From Arthrobacter sp. EM1 (GTDB lineage Bacteria > Actinomycetota > Actinomycetes > Actinomycetales > Micrococcaceae), in contig NZ_CP124836.1 of NCBI RefSeq assembly GCF_029964055.1, forward strand, positions 1,178,001-1,242,000: 64,000 bases of DNA, in the 5' to 3' direction. Shown one piece after another: positions 35,610 to 41,896 of this stretch (its first letter is position 1; each line of letters starts with the position of its first letter). The position numbers and the translations under genes are program-made. The notes beneath the pieces are model-generated. The model ran no database searches. It had not been told where the DNA came from and saw only the letters and a program-made list of their open reading frames with translations.

Positions 35610-36962
35610 TTAGCCTGCTTTGTCCGGGGCCGGCACGGTCTTGGCTTCCTTGACCGGCAGTGGCTGCGGGTTGCGGAAGGCTTCGGCGATGAGCGGGGTG
35701 ACCAGTTCGATCTGCCACCGCCGGGTCCCGAGGTTCGCCAGTTCCTCGGCGATTCCCTCTTCGCTGAACTCCACGGGCGGACGCCAGGAGACACGGCGCA
35801 GGTAGTCCGGGGTCAACAGGTTTTCCAAAGGCATGTTCAGTTCTTCGGCCTTGGCCTGCAGCAGCGGGCGGGCGGTGGCGAGCCGGGCGGCGGCCTCCGG
35901 GTCCCGGTCGGCCCAGACCCGCGGGGGCGGGGGAGCGTTGGTGGGCAGGTGCAGGGGAGGAAGGTCCTCGAGGGCGCGGGCGGCGGTGATGCAGCGCAGC
36001 CAGCGCGGTGCCTCGCGCTGGGCTGCGCGGCCGTGGAAGCCTTTGGTCCCCAGCAGCTGGGGCACGGTGCCGGGCATCGCCTTCGCCGCCGCGACCAGGG
36101 CGGAGTCGGGAATCAGCCGGCCGGGGGCGACGTCGCGGTTTTGCGCCAGCGAATCCCGTTCGAGCCATAGCTCGCGCACCGCGGCGAGCTGGCGCCGGTC
36201 GCGGATCTGGTGCAGTCCGGACGTTTTCCGCCACGGATCGACCCGGGGTGGTGCCTGGCCGGCGCCCAGGATGGCGGCGAACTCCTGTTCGGCGAAGTCC
36301 AGTTTGCCGTCGGCGGTGAGCAGTTCGATAAGCTCCTCGCGCAGTTCGGTAAGAACTTCGACATCCAGTGCCGCGTAGCGGAGCCACGGTTCCGGCAGCG
36401 GCCGGGTGGACCAGTCGGCCGCTGAGTGTTCCTTGGCGAGGCCAAAGCCCAGCAGCTGCTCGATCACCGCAGCGAGGCCCACCCGGGGAAGCCCGGCGAG
36501 GCGGGCGGCGAGTTCGGTGTCAAAGAGTCTGTCCGGCCACATGCCGAGTTCGGAGAGGCACGGCAGGTCCTGGCTGGCGGCGTGCAGGATCCATTCGACG
36601 CCGCGCAGGGCCTCGTTGATGATGCCAAGGTCGCCAAAGGGTTCCGGGTCGATCAGCCAGGTGCCGGAGCCCTCCCGGCGGATCTGCACCAGGAAGGCGC
36701 GCTGGCCGTAGCGGAAACCGGAAGCGCGTTCGGCGTCGACTCCGGCAGGGCCATGGCCTGCGGCGAGGGCAGCCGCGCAGCGTTCCAGCCCGGACATGGT
36801 TTCAATAACGAGCGGCACACCGTCGCGGGGGGCGTCAAGGTCGATCACCTCGGGAACCAGGCTGTCGAAGCCGTCCACGGCGATGTGGGCTGTGGCGTCA
36901 GCGGCCTCGGTCTGATGTTGTACGGTGCCTGCCGTGCTGATTTCCGGAATTTGAGGGGTCAT
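35610..36962 (-). CDS. rnd: Ribonuclease D
   Basis: 450 residues. A 3'-to-5' exoribonuclease that trims tRNA and other small RNA ends. The DEDDy catalytic residues are Asp76 and Glu78 (GVDAERASG), Asp132 (HAASQDLPCL) and Tyr196/Asp200 (YAALDVEVL). An HRDC domain follows (about 255-330, RDSLAQNRDVAPGRLIPD). There is an additional C-terminal helical part (about 340-450) typical of actinobacterial proteins. The ATG lacks a clear Shine-Dalgarno sequence. It follows the DUF3000 gene by 84 nt, a pairing conserved in actinobacteria including mycobacteria. Confidence 0.94.
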   Translation of the reverse strand: MTPQIPEISTAGTVQHQTEAADATAHIAVDGFDSLVPEVIDLDAPRDGVPLVIETMSGLERCAAALAAGHGPAGVDAERASGFRYGQRAFLVQIRREGSGTWLIDPEPFGDLGIINEALRGVEWILHAASQDLPCLSELGMWPDRLFDTELAARLAGLPRVGLAAVIEQLLGFGLAKEHSAADWSTRPLPEPWLRYAALDVEVLTELREELIELLTADGKLDFAEQEFAAILGAGQAPPRVDPWRKTSGLHQIRDRRQLAAVRELWLERDSLAQNRDVAPGRLIPDSALVAAAKAMPGTVPQLLGTKGFHGRAAQREAPRWLRCITAARALEDLPPLHLPTNAPPPPRVWADRDPEAAARLATARPLLQAKAEELNMPLENLLTPDYLRRVSWRPPVEFSEEGIAEELANLGTRRWQIELVTPLIAEAFRNPQPLPVKEAKTVPAPDKAG

Positions 36963-37046: not shown

Positions 37047-37706
37047 TCAGCTTCCAAACCAGGCCCGTCCCCGGCGCCGGCGCGGCAGGGCTGTGACACC
37101 GTCGGGCAGCGGCGGCAGGCCGGCGAACGTGCAGACCATGTCGGACCAGGCTTCCAGATGCGAGGTGATGTCCGGGGTGGCCGGAGTCCAGGATGCCCTG
37201 AGCTCGATGTCGATCGAATTGGGTCGGCCTTCGAGGGTTCCGAAGCTTTCGGACAGTACCCTGGTCGCGGTGCCGCCGGCCGAGCGGTACGGTGCGGCAT
37301 GGTCCTGCAGGGCTTCGACGAGCCAGGTCCAGGCAACGGAACCCAGCAGTTCGTCATTGCCCATCTCCGGTTCCAGCTGCGCGCGGATGTAGGTAACGAT
37401 CCGGAATTCCCCCTCCCAGACCGCGGAGCCGTCGGGATCGTGCAGCAGGATAAAGCGGCCGGTGGCCAGTTCGATGTCCTCGCTCTCGGACGCTCGCGCC
37501 AGGGCGGCCGCCGCGGGTCCATGGACTGCGCCGGAAGACGTTGATGCGCCGGGCGCAACAACCTCCGCCCCGAGTGCCACAGCGAACGGTGCCAGCCGCG
37601 CCGGGGCCGGGATTTCTTCCAGGCGCAGTTCACCCCGGGTTCGTGCCTGCCGAAGGGTTCCCAGGGCAAAAAGAAAATCTGCCGGAACCTGGTCGAGTGC
37701 GTTCAC
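37047..37706 (-). CDS. DUF3000 family protein
   Basis: 219 residues, GTG start. DUF3000 is an actinobacterial family of unknown function that is regularly encoded just before RNase D. Seen: a globular domain with PAPARLAPFAVALGAEV (about 34-50), GRFILLHDPDGSAVWEGEFRIVTYIRAQLE (about 82-112), GSVAWTWLVEAL and IELRASWTP, all conserved in the family. No signal peptide. Promoter evidence (TAATCT, 6 nt before GTG) supports this start. A role in RNA turnover with RNase D is inferred from context only. Confidence 0.88.
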   Translation of the reverse strand: MNALDQVPADFLFALGTLRQARTRGELRLEEIPAPARLAPFAVALGAEVVAPGASTSSGAVHGPAAAALARASESEDIELATGRFILLHDPDGSAVWEGEFRIVTYIRAQLEPEMGNDELLGSVAWTWLVEALQDHAAPYRSAGGTATRVLSESFGTLEGRPNSIDIELRASWTPATPDITSHLEAWSDMVCTFAGLPPLPDGVTALPRRRRGRAWFGS

Positions 37707-37806: not shown

Positions 37807-38907
37807 TCAACCGGCGGCGAGCTCGCGCTTGATGGCGGCGATAAAGGAATCAACATCGTCTTCGGTGGTGTCGAAGGAGCACATCCAGCGAACCTCGCCG
37901 GCTGCCTCGTTCCAGTCGTAAAAACGGAAGGACGCGCGCAGCCGGTCCGCCACGCCGGGCGGCAGGACCGCAAACACGCCGTTGGACTCCGTCTTCTGGC
38001 TTAGCTCGACGCCGGGGATGGATTCGACGCCGGCCCGAAGCCGGGCAGCCATGGCATTGGCGTGCGAGGCGGAGCGCAGCCACAAGTCCCCTTCGAGCAG
38101 GGCGATGAACTGCGCGGACATAAACCGCATCTTGGAGGCGAGCTGCATGTTCATCTTGCGCAGGTAGATCAGGCCCTGGGCCGCGGCCGGGTTCAGGGCG
38201 ATGACGACCTCACCGAAGAGCAAGCCGTTTTTGGTGCCGCCGAAGGAGAGGATGTCGACGCCGGCGTCGCGGGTGAACGCCCGCAGCGGCACATTCAGGT
38301 GGGCTGCAGCGTTCGCCAGCCGGGCGCCGTCCATGTGCAGCTTCATGCCCTTGGAGTGGACATGCTCGGCGATCGCCCGCACTTCGTCCGGCGTGTAGCA
38401 GGTGCCGAGTTCGGTGGTCTGGGTGATGGACACGGCCAGCGGCTGCGCGCGGTGCTCGTCGCCCCAGCCCCAGGCTTCCTTGTCGATTAGCTCCGGAGTC
38501 AGCTTGCCGTCCGCTGTGGGGACCTGGAGCAGTTTGATGCCACCGATCCGCTCAGGGGCGCCGTTCTCATCCATGTTGATGTGTGCGGTGGAGGCACAAA
38601 CCACGGCCCCCCAGCGAGGCAGCAGGGACTGCAGCGACAGCACGTTGGCGCCGGTGCCGTTGAAGACCGGGAAGCACTCGATCCCTGCGCCGAAGTAGCC
38701 CTCCATCAACTGCTGGAGCCGGGCGGTGTAGTCGTCCTCGCCGTAGGAAACCTGGTGGCCCTCGTTGGCGGCGGCCAGGGCCGCCAGTACCTCCGGATGT
38801 ACGCCGGAATAGTTATCCGAGGCAAAGCCGCGGACGGCGGGATCGTGGAGCCGCACCGCTGTGCTGGCGGGGGCAGTTTCAACTGTGCTTGTCATCGATT
38901 TGCTCAC
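37807..38907 (-). CDS. Low-specificity L-threonine aldolase-like PLP enzyme
   Basis: 366 residues from GTG 38907, the start supported by a TAGACT hexamer 6 nt upstream; ATG 38895 is an alternative. Fold type I PLP enzyme that splits L-threonine/allo-threonine to glycine and acetaldehyde, or a related beta-elimination enzyme. Visible: the N-terminal FASDNYSGVHPEVL, PVFNGTGANVLSL (about 80), the PLP-ring Asp193 in LHMDGARLAN and the Schiff-base Lys226 in LSFGGTKNGLLFGE. All key residues are present. It lies 51 nt after the SDR gene in an operon-like run with the DUF6421 gene, so its true substrate may be set by those partners. Confidence 0.9.
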   Translation of the reverse strand: MSKSMTSTVETAPASTAVRLHDPAVRGFASDNYSGVHPEVLAALAAANEGHQVSYGEDDYTARLQQLMEGYFGAGIECFPVFNGTGANVLSLQSLLPRWGAVVCASTAHINMDENGAPERIGGIKLLQVPTADGKLTPELIDKEAWGWGDEHRAQPLAVSITQTTELGTCYTPDEVRAIAEHVHSKGMKLHMDGARLANAAAHLNVPLRAFTRDAGVDILSFGGTKNGLLFGEVVIALNPAAAQGLIYLRKMNMQLASKMRFMSAQFIALLEGDLWLRSASHANAMAARLRAGVESIPGVELSQKTESNGVFAVLPPGVADRLRASFRFYDWNEAAGEVRWMCSFDTTEDDVDSFIAAIKRELAAG

Positions 38908-38913
38908 TCTTTC

Positions 38914-38919
38914 AGTCTA
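38914..38919 (-). promoter_or_regulatory. Predicted -10 element of a leaderless promoter (threonine-aldolase-like gene)
   Basis: On the minus strand TAGACT is followed by 6 nt (gaaaga) and the GTG at 38907. The gene could have its own promoter in addition to readthrough from the DUF6421-SDR pair. Confidence 0.45.
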
Positions 38920-38958
38920 AGGAGATCCGGGCCCCGGCACTAAGCCGCAAGGGGTCGG

Positions 38959-39732
38959 TCAGGGCTGCGGCACCTGCCCAAGCAGTACGCGCCGGCCGTT
39001 GAGTTCCGCCGCGGGGGAGGTGAAGAGCCCGACGGCGGCCGCAGCCAGTTCCGTCACGTCGGTGAATCCGGGGAAGGTGCGTTCCGGCGACTTCGCGCGC
39101 ATGGCGGCATCCACGAGGGCTTTCACCACAAAAATCACCGCCGCGCTTTGCTGTTCAACGGGGACGGCGGCACTGCCGGGACCGGCGGCCCCCGCCTGCC
39201 CGCGGTGGAAACCGTCGGCCACGGCCAGGGTCCACGCTTCGGCTGCCGCCTTGGCAGCCACGTAACTGGCACCGCCAGCCGTCGGCCGGCCCACGGCAGT
39301 GGAGGACACCATGGCGAAGCGGCCGGCGTCGGACGCCGCAAGATCGTCATAAAACACGCGCGAGACGTTGCGCAGCGTGGTGATTGCGCCGCGTTCCAGG
39401 AAGTCCCAGTCCTCGTCGCTCTGGTCGGTGATGCCCTTGGCGCCGCGCCAGCCGCCCACCAGATGAATGACGCCGTCGACGCCCCCGCCTTTTCCGGCCA
39501 GCATCGAGTGCACGGTGGAGTGCAGCGACCGGACTGCAGCGAGGTCCGCGAGGTCGCACACCAGTGGCGTGACTGCGCTTCCGGCTTCCGCGGCGGCCGC
39601 TTCAATCCGGGCCCGGTCCGAGCCCACGGTGAAGACCGTGTGCCCGGCCCCAGTCAGCGCGCGCGCCGCGGCGATTCCGGACGGGCCGCTGCCGCCGGTG
39701 ACCACCACGTTCAGGGGCCGTCCGGCGCTCAT
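38959..39732 (-). CDS. Short-chain dehydrogenase/reductase
   Basis: 257 residues, ATG overlapping the DUF6421 stop (ATGA). The cofactor motif is VVVTGGSGPSGIAAARAL (9-26), a variant of TGxxxGxG, and CDLADLAAV (about 59) binds the adenine. The catalytic triad is Ser in MVSSTAVG and the YVAAKAA motif (Tyr-x-x-x-Lys). The substrate is unknown. An HLVGGWRG stretch (about 91) is also seen in SDRs from the same neighbourhood in other actinobacteria (recollection, not searched). Soluble. Confidence 0.88.
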   Translation of the reverse strand: MSAGRPLNVVVTGGSGPSGIAAARALTGAGHTVFTVGSDRARIEAAAAEAGSAVTPLVCDLADLAAVRSLHSTVHSMLAGKGGGVDGVIHLVGGWRGAKGITDQSDEDWDFLERGAITTLRNVSRVFYDDLAASDAGRFAMVSSTAVGRPTAGGASYVAAKAAAEAWTLAVADGFHRGQAGAAGPGSAAVPVEQQSAAVIFVVKALVDAAMRAKSPERTFPGFTDVTELAAAAVGLFTSPAAELNGRRVLLGQVPQP

Positions 39733-41126
39733 GCGGCGTTCATGGCCGTGCTGGTATTTGAGGTCTCCGAGGTGCCCGTGATGCCGGCCGTGGATTCGAT
39801 GACCGGGCGCATTTTCTTCTCAAGTGCCTCGTAGAACATCGAGAGCGGGAACTCGTCGTCGAGGACCTGGTCGGTGAGTCCGCGCGGCGGGCCGGCCAGC
39901 GGCAGCGCATCCGGACCTTTGGCCCAGACGGACGACGGGTTGGGTGTGACGGTGCCGGAAATCAGCTCGTACGCGGCCAGCCAGTGCGCCATCTTCGGCC
40001 GGTCGATGGAGCGCCAGTAGAGCTCTTCGATCCTGGCGCCGAGTTCAACCACAACGTCGGCGGCCTCGTCCCAGTCGATGCTGAGTTTACTGTCGGTCCA
40101 GTGCAGGACGCGGTGCTGGTGCATCCAGGCAAAGAGCAGCTGGCCACCCAGACCGTCGTAGTTGCGCACCCGGCTGCCGGTAATGGCGAAGCGGAAGATC
40201 CGGTCGAAGATAACGGCGTACTGGACCAGCTTGGCGTGCCGGCGGGCCTCCGGATCGGCGTCCTCGTCCTTTTCGATTTTCACGGATTCGCGGAAGGCGG
40301 TCAGGTCGCAGCGCAATTCCTCGAGGGAGTACAGGAAAAACGGCATCCGCTGCTTGATCATAAAGGGGTCGAAGGGCAGGTCACCGCGCATGTGGGTGCG
40401 GTCGTGGATCAGGTCCCACATCACAAAGGTTTCCTGGGTCAGCTCCTGGTCCGTCAGCAGGGCTGCCGCGTCCTCCGGCAGCTGCAGCGAGGTGATGTCC
40501 GCGGCGGCGCTGAGCACGCGGCGGAAGCGGGCTGCTTCACGGTCGGCAAAGATGGCGCCCCAGGTGAAGGTAGGAGTCTGGCGGACCGCGACGGTTTCCG
40601 GGAACAGCACCGCGGAATTGGTGTTGTAACCGGGGGTGAAATCCAGGAAACGAATCGGCACGAAGAGCTTGTTGGAGTAGTCGCCCTCCTCCAGCCCGGC
40701 AATGAACTCGGGCCAGATGACCTCGATCAGGACGGCCTCGACCAGGCGGTTGCTGCTGCCGTTCTGCGTGTACATCGGAAAGACCACAAGGTGCTGCAGG
40801 CCGTTGACCCGGTGCTGCTGCGGCTGGAAGGCCTGCAGGGAGTCCAGGAAATCGGGCACGCCAAAGCCGCCGTCGGCCCAGCGGCCGAAGTCGGTCACAA
40901 GGAGGGTGAGGTAGTCGGCGTCGTGCGGAAAGGACGGCGCGAGAGCCGTGATGGACGACGAGATCGTCCGGACATATCCGCGGGCCGGTTCGTGGTTGGC
41001 GGTCTCCGGCACGGAGCCGTCCTGGACCTGGAGTGCCTGCAGCGCGGTGGCGGCGGCCTTGAGCTCCATCCACGCCGGGGAGTCGGCCGTGATCGGGGCA
41101 GTGGTGGTGACAGCAGTGGTAGTCAT
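39729..41126 (-). CDS. DUF6421 family protein
   Basis: 465 residues from ATG 41126; a longer open frame upstream looks non-coding. DUF6421 is a large uncharacterised family of actinobacteria. The sequence lacks membrane segments. Conserved-looking blocks are FPHDADYLTLLVTDFGRWADGGFG (about 65), FPMYTQNGSSNRLVEAVLIEVIWPEF (about 115), MWDLIHDRTHMRGDLPFDPFMIKQRMPFF (about 255, with His-x-x-x-His) and QLLFAWMHQHRVLHW (about 350). The HDRTHMRGD and MHQHRVLHW histidines are candidate metal or substrate ligands. It is the first gene of a run followed by the SDR gene (overlap) and the aldolase-like gene. Function unknown. Confidence 0.85.
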   Translation of the reverse strand: MTTTAVTTTAPITADSPAWMELKAAATALQALQVQDGSVPETANHEPARGYVRTISSSITALAPSFPHDADYLTLLVTDFGRWADGGFGVPDFLDSLQAFQPQQHRVNGLQHLVVFPMYTQNGSSNRLVEAVLIEVIWPEFIAGLEEGDYSNKLFVPIRFLDFTPGYNTNSAVLFPETVAVRQTPTFTWGAIFADREAARFRRVLSAAADITSLQLPEDAAALLTDQELTQETFVMWDLIHDRTHMRGDLPFDPFMIKQRMPFFLYSLEELRCDLTAFRESVKIEKDEDADPEARRHAKLVQYAVIFDRIFRFAITGSRVRNYDGLGGQLLFAWMHQHRVLHWTDSKLSIDWDEAADVVVELGARIEELYWRSIDRPKMAHWLAAYELISGTVTPNPSSVWAKGPDALPLAGPPRGLTDQVLDDEFPLSMFYEALEKKMRPVIESTAGITGTSETSNTSTAMNAA

Positions 41127-41395: not shown

Positions 41396-41896
41396 CTACT
41401 GCCCGGCGTCGCCGGCCGAAACCAGCTTCAGGGAAACGGAGTTGATGCAGAAGCGCTGGTCGGTCGGGGTTCCGTACCCCTCGCCCTCAAACACGTGCCC
41501 CAGGTGCGAATCGCAGTGGGCGCAGCGGACTTCCACACGCTCCATGCCCTGGGTGCGGTCATGGATATACCGGACGGTGCCGTCCGCCAGCGGGGCCCAG
41601 AAGGAGGGCCAGCCGCAGTGCGAATCGAACTTCTCCTTGCTGGTGAAGAGCTCCGTGCCGCAGGCGCGGCACTGGTAAACGCCAGCGGTGTGGGAGTCCC
41701 AGTACTCGCCGGTGTACGGGCGCTCGGTCCCTGCCTGGCGGAGCACGCGGTACTCCTCCGGACTCAGTTCCTGGCGCCACTGCTCGTCGGATTTTTCCAC
41801 CGTCGGGCTGGCGTTGCCGGCATCGGATCCGCCCGCGCTTTCGGCGGCGGGATCCTTGACGGGCGTGACTTTTGGCCTGTTTGTAAAGATGCTCAT
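41396..41896 (-). CDS. msrB: Peptide-methionine (R)-S-oxide reductase
   Basis: 166 residues. Repairs methionine-R-sulfoxide in proteins. Zinc ligands Cys76/Cys79 (CRAC) and Cys125/Cys128 (CAHC), the nucleophile Cys150 (DQRFCINSVSL) and another Cys94 (SHCGWPSF) that may act as resolving residue. The first 35 residues are a disordered extension not found in short MsrB proteins. There is no signal peptide, so it acts in the cytoplasm. The hypothetical gene upstream on the same strand is 14 nt away, so the two are probably cotranscribed. Confidence 0.95.
   Translation of the reverse strand: MSIFTNRPKVTPVKDPAAESAGGSDAGNASPTVEKSDEQWRQELSPEEYRVLRQAGTERPYTGEYWDSHTAGVYQCRACGTELFTSKEKFDSHCGWPSFWAPLADGTVRYIHDRTQGMERVEVRCAHCDSHLGHVFEGEGYGTPTDQRFCINSVSLKLVSAGDAGQ

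Follow-up and report, generated by a model that had tools for sequence, protein, structure and literature searches.

The window analysed here is a 64,000-nucleotide stretch of the genome of Arthrobacter sp. EM1 (contig NZ_CP124836.1, positions 1,178,001 to 1,242,000), and on its minus strand lies a three-gene operon that encodes a DUF6421 protein, a short-chain dehydrogenase/reductase (SDR) and an L-threonine-aldolase-like enzyme dependent on pyridoxal phosphate (PLP). The DUF6421, or PolE-family, gene occupies 41126..39729 (465 aa, ATG at 41126, stop included; PF19985), the SDR gene 39732..38959 (257 aa; PF00106, E 2.1e-18) and the aldolase gene 38907..37807 (366 aa, GTG at 38907; PF01212, E 1.9e-49), the last with an in-frame ATG at 38895 as a possible alternative start. 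The DUF6421 stop and the SDR start share 4 nt (ATGA), and 51 nt separate the SDR end from the aldolase start. These open reading frames agree with the layout given in an earlier reading made from the letters of the window (the sequence-only reading), which had three genes in one direction, the first overlapping the second and a 51-nt gap before the third. The operon is real; a consensus scan in and around it revealed no convincing promoter or terminator, the signals lying near chance level.

The DUF6421 protein matches PF19985 at 812 bits (cut-off 25, E 1.1e-244) over profile positions 2-437 of 437, and with it as the phmmer query SmPolE (9j3g) was recovered at E 3.3e-10. Its closest named relatives are Arthrobacter and Pseudarthrobacter records with 88-92% identity. 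Structure prediction and a fold search, suggested by the sequence-only reading, led to the PolE fold: the AlphaFold2 model (predicted local distance difference test, pLDDT, 82) aligned to SnPolE (9j30_B/9j2r_A) over 364 residues with a VIA Z of 30.3 and a root-mean-square deviation of 3.5, Foldseek gave E 1.5e-12 to the PolE fold, and the next fold was dipeptidyl-peptidase III (DPP III) at Z 17.5. The main text of PMC12614342, a paper of October 2025 and the one article of the open-licence literature found to name DUF6421, links the family to Fe/pterin chemistry; it describes PolE as an L-isoleucine desaturase strictly dependent on Fe(II), O2 and tetrahydrobiopterin, reports that soluble mutants of the HExxHxnE motif are inactive and that PolE has no sequence or structural homology to earlier Fe/pterin enzymes, and proposes a new Fe/pterin family of which many members colocalise with amino-acid-modifying enzymes. 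Given that work, DUF6421 is no longer, as a family, of unknown function (PMC12614342, main text).

The predicted iron-ligand motif of the window protein, H241-D-R-T-H245-X23-E269 (40320..40406, minus strand), follows the family motif HE/DxxH X(21-23) E, and H241, D242, R243, H245 and E269 are identical in 158/158 aligned relatives with a letter there (one gap). F175 and Y323, matched to SnPolE F140 and Y280 by alignment counting, are identical in the same 158 relatives. SnPolE Y157, also placed by counting, is replaced by I192, again identical in all 158, and the substrate pocket may therefore differ. Two histidine-rich blocks had been singled out from the sequence as conserved; this is correct for HDRTHMRGD, which holds the first four of these motif residues, whereas MHQHRVLHW is less conserved, H336 and W343 alone being invariant in a diverse alignment. 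The likeness to PolE of the polyoxin pathway (PF19985; PDB 9J2E, 9J2R, 9J3G) thus consists of the fold, the 2-His-1-Glu ligands and the equivalents of F140 and Y280. The differences are an identity of about 15% over the fold alignment, HDxxH in place of the HExxH of PolE, the isoleucine at the Y157 position, and the partners, which are an SDR and an aldolase here and the diiron enzyme PolF for PolE. From sequence and model, DUF6421 is most likely a mononuclear Fe(II)/tetrahydropterin-dependent amino-acid oxidase and the first enzyme of a pathway. The earlier suggestion of DUF6421 as a possible third enzyme holds in that the protein is predicted to be an enzyme, of the PolE family; rather than an accessory enzyme, it is most likely the one that catalyses the first, oxidising step.

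Some relatives depart from this form of DUF6421. In L079 (7093-9192) and L081 (6391-8550) DUF6421 has at its N-terminus an additional domain of some 250 residues, with weak matches to DUF4350, IFT52 GIFT and, in L079, ThuA; the domain was recognised by Pfam in these two loci of one family and by eye in L211-L215 of another. In the large-genome strain G207 a 373-aa PolE-like second copy (L083, 6956-8077; 21% identity to the window DUF6421) stands beside an operon-type DUF6421.

Linkage of the three genes was counted in 155 loci, namely the 159 loci of L064-L223 with a DUF6421 tblastn match less the four with 4.5 kb or less downstream. The PolE-like second copy of L083 gave no tblastn match and was not counted, the window locus is not included, and the short loci L001-L063 and the loci of the 100-genome search for LysP-like genes (described below) were kept out. 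Partners were accepted on the same strand, with the SDR 1.0-3.5 kb and the aldolase 1.0-7.0 kb from the start of the DUF6421 match. The set mixes genome stretches with 80 named loci, the best 80 of 591 relatives, and because these are the best-scoring relatives, Arthrobacter and its neighbours are over-represented and some species are present twice. Both SDR and aldolase accompany DUF6421 in 127 loci, the SDR only in 19, the aldolase only in eight and neither in one, so the genes are not unlinked in most genomes that have DUF6421. The neighbourhood analysis proposed on the basis of the sequence was in this way carried out, with at least one partner kept in 154 of the 155 loci, and the view of the three genes as one functional unit is supported by the 127.

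Among the 78 named loci with room downstream, all 78 have the SDR and 69 the aldolase in the same orientation and no more than 5 kb away. In 62 of the 78 the reading frames of DUF6421 and SDR overlap, in 48 by exactly 4 nt (start codons chosen by script), and the aldolase is placed more loosely, with a median of 35 nt after the SDR and more than 1 kb off in nine of 68 named loci. An SDR without an aldolase nearby is commoner than the reverse, which together with the tight DUF6421-SDR coupling fits an SDR that serves DUF6421 better than one that reduces the aldolase product. All eight genomes tested that have an aldolase-less DUF6421 locus carry a homologue elsewhere in the genome (54-76% identity).

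DUF6421 was found in 66 of 100 genomes of the window's family, in 37/198 genomes of the order and in 22/396 across the phylum. It occurs in 149 of 150 genomes of a large-genome actinobacterial family (most 6-10 Mb) that we take to be Streptomycetaceae. The sequence-only reading had named the same neighbours for Streptomyces, and such linkage elsewhere is correct, as the 127 of 155 loci show; among the 155 are 15 loci from this presumed Streptomycetaceae family, of which 14 have both partners and one (L220) the aldolase only. The operon is accordingly a conserved one, shared by many soil actinobacteria, near-universal as to DUF6421 in one large family and frequent in the window's own, for which we found no described function.

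The product of the second gene is an SDR of unusual sequence. At residues 91-97 (39442..39462, minus strand), where other SDRs carry NNAG, it has the motif LVGGWRG; GGW is present in 147/147 operon SDRs and the full motif in 143. The tryptophan occurs in none of the 21 other SDRs of the window genome that could be aligned there (23 found, two not aligned at the site). Human quinonoid dihydropteridine reductase (QDPR, 1HDR) carries GGWAGG in register with GGW and aligns over nearly its full length to a profile of the operon SDRs at 38.8 bits, compared with 5.6 bits for the best of 300 shuffles; the best solved structure other than QDPR gave 32.8 bits against QDPR. Scored in turn against human QDPR, the 147 operon SDRs have a median of 17.4 bits (maximum 38.7, 85 above 15) and 44 further SDRs, drawn from these loci and the same genome, a median of 1.3 (maximum 21.8, three above 15). 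The rows of these sets are mutually related rather than independent and some of the 44 are fragments, so that the p-value of the comparison serves as an indication only. By these scores the operon SDR is nearer to QDPR than the other actinobacterial SDRs compared. A QDPR-like C-terminal R..P..F..T pattern, absent from the 44 other SDRs (0/44), is suggestive only, seven aligned operon SDRs being without that stretch. QDPR speeds PolE 2-3 times in vitro (PMC12614342, main text).

Several observations speak against placing the SDR with QDPR. The serine of the SDR catalytic set (S143, Y157, K161, all retained) is invariant in one alignment of operon SDRs and at least 90% conserved in another, and QDPR has LAGA, with alanine, at that point. 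Against the operon-SDR profile, ordinary SDRs of the window genome reach 24-81 bits and QDPR 39, and the C-terminal pattern is found in only 25 of the 147 operon SDRs. QDPR is not among the best 50 structural neighbours listed by each of two fold searches, nor among the 60 listed of 874 PDB matches to the profile at E <= 10. A short fragment around GGW searched against PDB gave no QDPR match, the best being another SDR at E 0.1. The model of the window SDR (pLDDT 94.5) has classical SDRs as fold neighbours. What the operon SDR shares with QDPR is therefore GGW at the same place, YxxxK and a similarity above that of the other SDRs compared, a weak one of at most 39 bits; it differs in keeping the SDR serine and in being overall a classical SDR. 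Because of the serine, the classical fold neighbours and the scores of ordinary SDRs, we call it QDPR-like and not QDPR. An identity as a plain FabG or alcohol dehydrogenase, compatible with the fold, was set aside as second choice on the GGW motif and the QDPR similarity.

The same catalytic set, together with nearest folds and profile matches that are, among those listed, ordinary carbonyl reductases, could also belong to an SDR of the carbon pathway, one that reduces the aldehyde from the aldolase or oxidises a beta-hydroxy amino acid while another reductase recycles the pterin. This is possible though doubtful: the 19 loci with an SDR and no nearby aldolase, GGW in all operon SDRs sampled and a QDPR similarity above that of the 44 others argue against it, and the aldehyde dehydrogenase paired with the operon in some loci would oppose an aldehyde reductase. 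On its sequence, the SDR is probably a QDPR-like, pterin-recycling partner of DUF6421, to which its start is coupled in 62 of 78 named loci; the earlier proposal of a reductase of the aldolase product is probably not correct.

The third protein matches the L-threonine aldolase 5vye of PDB over its full length (E 4.6e-85) and is the only match of its kind in the window genome at E <= 1e-5. Its K226, in SFGGTKNG (38230..38232, minus strand), is the predicted PLP lysine; TKNG is common to 5vye and 7yvr and present in 129 of the 136 aldolases found, and we take its lysine to be the one that binds PLP. By sequence the protein is a normal fold-type-I L-threonine aldolase and would be expected to cleave a beta-hydroxy amino acid in a retro-aldol reaction, so that the idea of beta-hydroxy amino acid metabolism through a retro-aldol PLP enzyme, put forward in the sequence-only reading, survives as a prediction. 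Its likeness to 5VYE and 7YVR lies in the full-length match and the PLP lysine block; unlike them it has as its operon neighbour an oxidase from which a beta-hydroxy substrate other than threonine could come. Several paralogous second operons carry an aldolase copy of their own. In L085 and L140 the aldolase of such second-copy-type operons looks truncated, as if decaying.

An ordinary threonine aldolase might be carried for convenience beside a separate two-gene oxidase of DUF6421 and SDR; the 19 loci with DUF6421 and SDR and no nearby aldolase are consistent with this, as is an aldolase at E <= 1e-60 in 20 of 34 genomes of the 100-genome sample that lack DUF6421 (65/66 of those with it). We consider this very unlikely, given that both partners stand with DUF6421 in 127/155 loci, that paralogous second operons bring their own aldolase, and that the closer aldolase tracks DUF6421: a homologue with at least 60% identity to that of the window is present in 65/66 DUF6421 genomes and 6/34 others, by hand-read counts and with a cut set after the list was seen.

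Taken together, the three genes may encode an oxidise-then-cleave amino-acid pathway of three steps, a scheme that we place first among the explanations and regard as evenly poised between right and wrong. DUF6421 would use O2 and a tetrahydropterin to hydroxylate C-beta of a free L-amino acid, a reaction suggested by its aldolase partner. The co-translated SDR would use NAD(P)H to reduce the quinonoid dihydropterin formed in this step, much as QDPR serves phenylalanine hydroxylase, and the PLP aldolase, as its family suggests, would split the beta-hydroxy amino acid by retro-aldol reaction into glycine and an aldehyde. In some lineages an aldehyde dehydrogenase, encoded next to the operon, could then oxidise the aldehyde. 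Carnitine biosynthesis proceeds by beta-hydroxylation of trimethyllysine, aldol cleavage and aldehyde oxidation, and the proposed order of reactions is the same (hydroxylation at C-beta, release of glycine, oxidation of the aldehyde), although the hydroxylase there is a 2-oxoglutarate enzyme and here would be an Fe/pterin enzyme, with trimethyllysine a candidate substrate only. Phenylalanine hydroxylase is likewise an Fe/tetrahydropterin oxidase with a pterin-recycling reductase, and the operon would resemble that system in having both; its fold is unrelated to that of PolE (PMC12614342, main text). If the scheme is true, it identifies a type of pathway in which bacteria apply pterins to non-aromatic amino acids and have a reductase dedicated to pterin recycling.

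Several points weigh against the scheme. PolE desaturates and does not hydroxylate. The operon lacks an SDR in nine of the 155 loci, a pterin-4a-carbinolamine dehydratase, another difference from the phenylalanine hydroxylase system, was not found in the window genome by a search in which seven of 14 control genomes were positive, and no assayed enzyme from this type of operon was found. The PolE-family chemistry was already known (2025); put forward here are the coupled, unusual QDPR-like SDR, the operon and the pathway reading. The open-licence literature, covered as articles rather than supplements, gave no account of the operon, of a recycling role for its SDR or of the pathway, and the main text of PMC12614342, taken likewise apart from its supplements, contains no mention of 'aldolase'.

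The identity of the substrate is the weakest step, and clues to it come from genes next to the operon in some lineages. LysP adjacency was tested on L064-L183 (119 loci), in which a LysP-like permease adjoins the operon in 12, from three lineages: it is divergent in ten loci of Arthrobacter type and downstream in L097 and L100, which belong to two other genera. For the permeases of L085, L087 and L097, three of the 12, and for that of L144 the best NCBIfam model is NF008094/PRK10836, which we take to be the LysP model, at 641-708 bits, the next model giving 459-466. The 100-genome sample has a LysP-like gene in 36 genomes, 17 of them also with DUF6421; a simple length argument predicts about 0.07 adjacencies to DUF6421 for 21 genes, and four were observed. 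Three loci with no nearby aldolase (L131, L135, L136) have a polar-amino-acid ATP-binding cassette (ABC) transporter next downstream. The binding protein of L131 scores 118 bits to a Lys/Arg/Orn model, above other substrate-binding-protein models and lower than a kinase model, with all scores below cut-off. A regulator cluster is divergent from the operon in six loci, and the one member checked is of Lrp type.

In L096, L100, L201 and L202 the gene directly behind the SDR or the aldolase, on the operon strand, encodes an aldehyde dehydrogenase. Three of these loci (L096, L201, L202) have no aldolase nearby, and the genes behind their dehydrogenase resemble, from translations read by eye, an osmoprotectant-type ABC transporter, which would suit a quaternary amine. 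The order in L100 is DUF6421-SDR-aldolase-dehydrogenase-LysP-like permease. A different aldehyde dehydrogenase lies upstream and divergent in L213-L215, where aminobutyraldehyde dehydrogenase, aminotransferase, PotA-like and carboxynorspermidine-synthase-like genes are also near DUF6421; in L213 the first two score above cut-off and stand a few kb from it. These polyamine and gamma-aminobutyric acid (GABA) genes fit a 4-aminobutanal product, but may be an adjacent putrescine cluster; such genes were not seen by eye in two further loci of that family, L211 and L212. Not counted as partners were aldehyde dehydrogenase matches in L097, L121, L134, L192, L193 and L204 (27-34% identity, at least 1.9 kb upstream) and second matches in L213 and L214.

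Together the permeases, ABC transporter, dehydrogenases and regulator suggest uptake of a cationic amino acid and its breakdown through an aldehyde, and the LysP-like permeases beside the operon point weakly to lysine or another cationic amino acid. The likeliest candidate substrate of the proposed pathway would be a long cationic amino acid, either lysine or N-methylated lysine, with lysine giving glycine and 4-aminobutanal and trimethyllysine giving a carnitine-type aldehyde. A tentative and rather unlikely version of the scheme is a tetrahydropterin-driven breakdown of lysine or N-methyl-lysine, which would release glycine together with 4-aminobutanal (or 4-trimethylaminobutanal) and lead on to GABA or butyrobetaine. 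If true, the route would be previously undescribed, would parallel the phenylalanine hydroxylase system for a non-aromatic amino acid, and would count among the core traits of one large actinobacterial family and many Micrococcaceae. On the other side of the balance, the permease scores fall below the NF008094 curated cut-off of 735, the operon-adjacent dehydrogenase scores under its curated cut-offs, a search of the window genome gave no LysP-like match, and a LysP-like gene adjoins DUF6421 in only four of the 17 genomes with both. These counts do not bear out an exclusive placement of the permease beside DUF6421, suggested by a smaller search of 16 genomes in which the close copies (>60% identity) adjoined a DUF6421 locus in nine of the nine genomes that had one.

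Threonine aldolases are reversible, and the enzyme could in principle work in the building direction, joining glycine and an aldehyde to a beta-hydroxy amino acid that DUF6421 then desaturates or oxidises further, yielding an unusual amino acid in the manner of PolE for polyoxin. This would suit the origin of PolE in a biosynthetic cluster and the proposal, in the main text of PMC12614342, of unusual-amino-acid pathways for DUF6421 neighbours. We consider it unlikely: in Arthrobacter relatives the neighbourhood of the operon is conserved and of housekeeping type (MsrB, DUF3000, RNase D) and DUF6421 is near-universal in the large-genome family, unlike variable biosynthetic clusters, and the permeases and aldehyde dehydrogenases of some loci suggest breakdown.

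In the window the genes of this neighbourhood share the minus strand with the operon: an MsrB gene (41396-41896) stands upstream, and downstream a DUF3000 gene (37047-37706) is followed by an RNase D-like gene (35610-36962). DUF3000 is a family of unknown function; its gene begins 100 nt downstream of the aldolase gene, and the order is retained in many Arthrobacter relatives. The same series of MsrB, DUF6421, SDR, aldolase, DUF3000 and RNase D is present in L166 (WNZI01000002.1), whose record bears the title Vibrio cholerae strain 35D; the stretch is of Arthrobacter type, and the record looks mislabelled or contaminated. Elsewhere, L154 has a sulfatase-family gene (PF00884, 10124-11740) on the opposite strand between the SDR and the aldolase, and 13 loci, mostly of the large-genome family (L069-L078, L097, L193, L219), have a gene that by eye resembles glycerophosphodiester phosphodiesterase, divergent and upstream of DUF6421.

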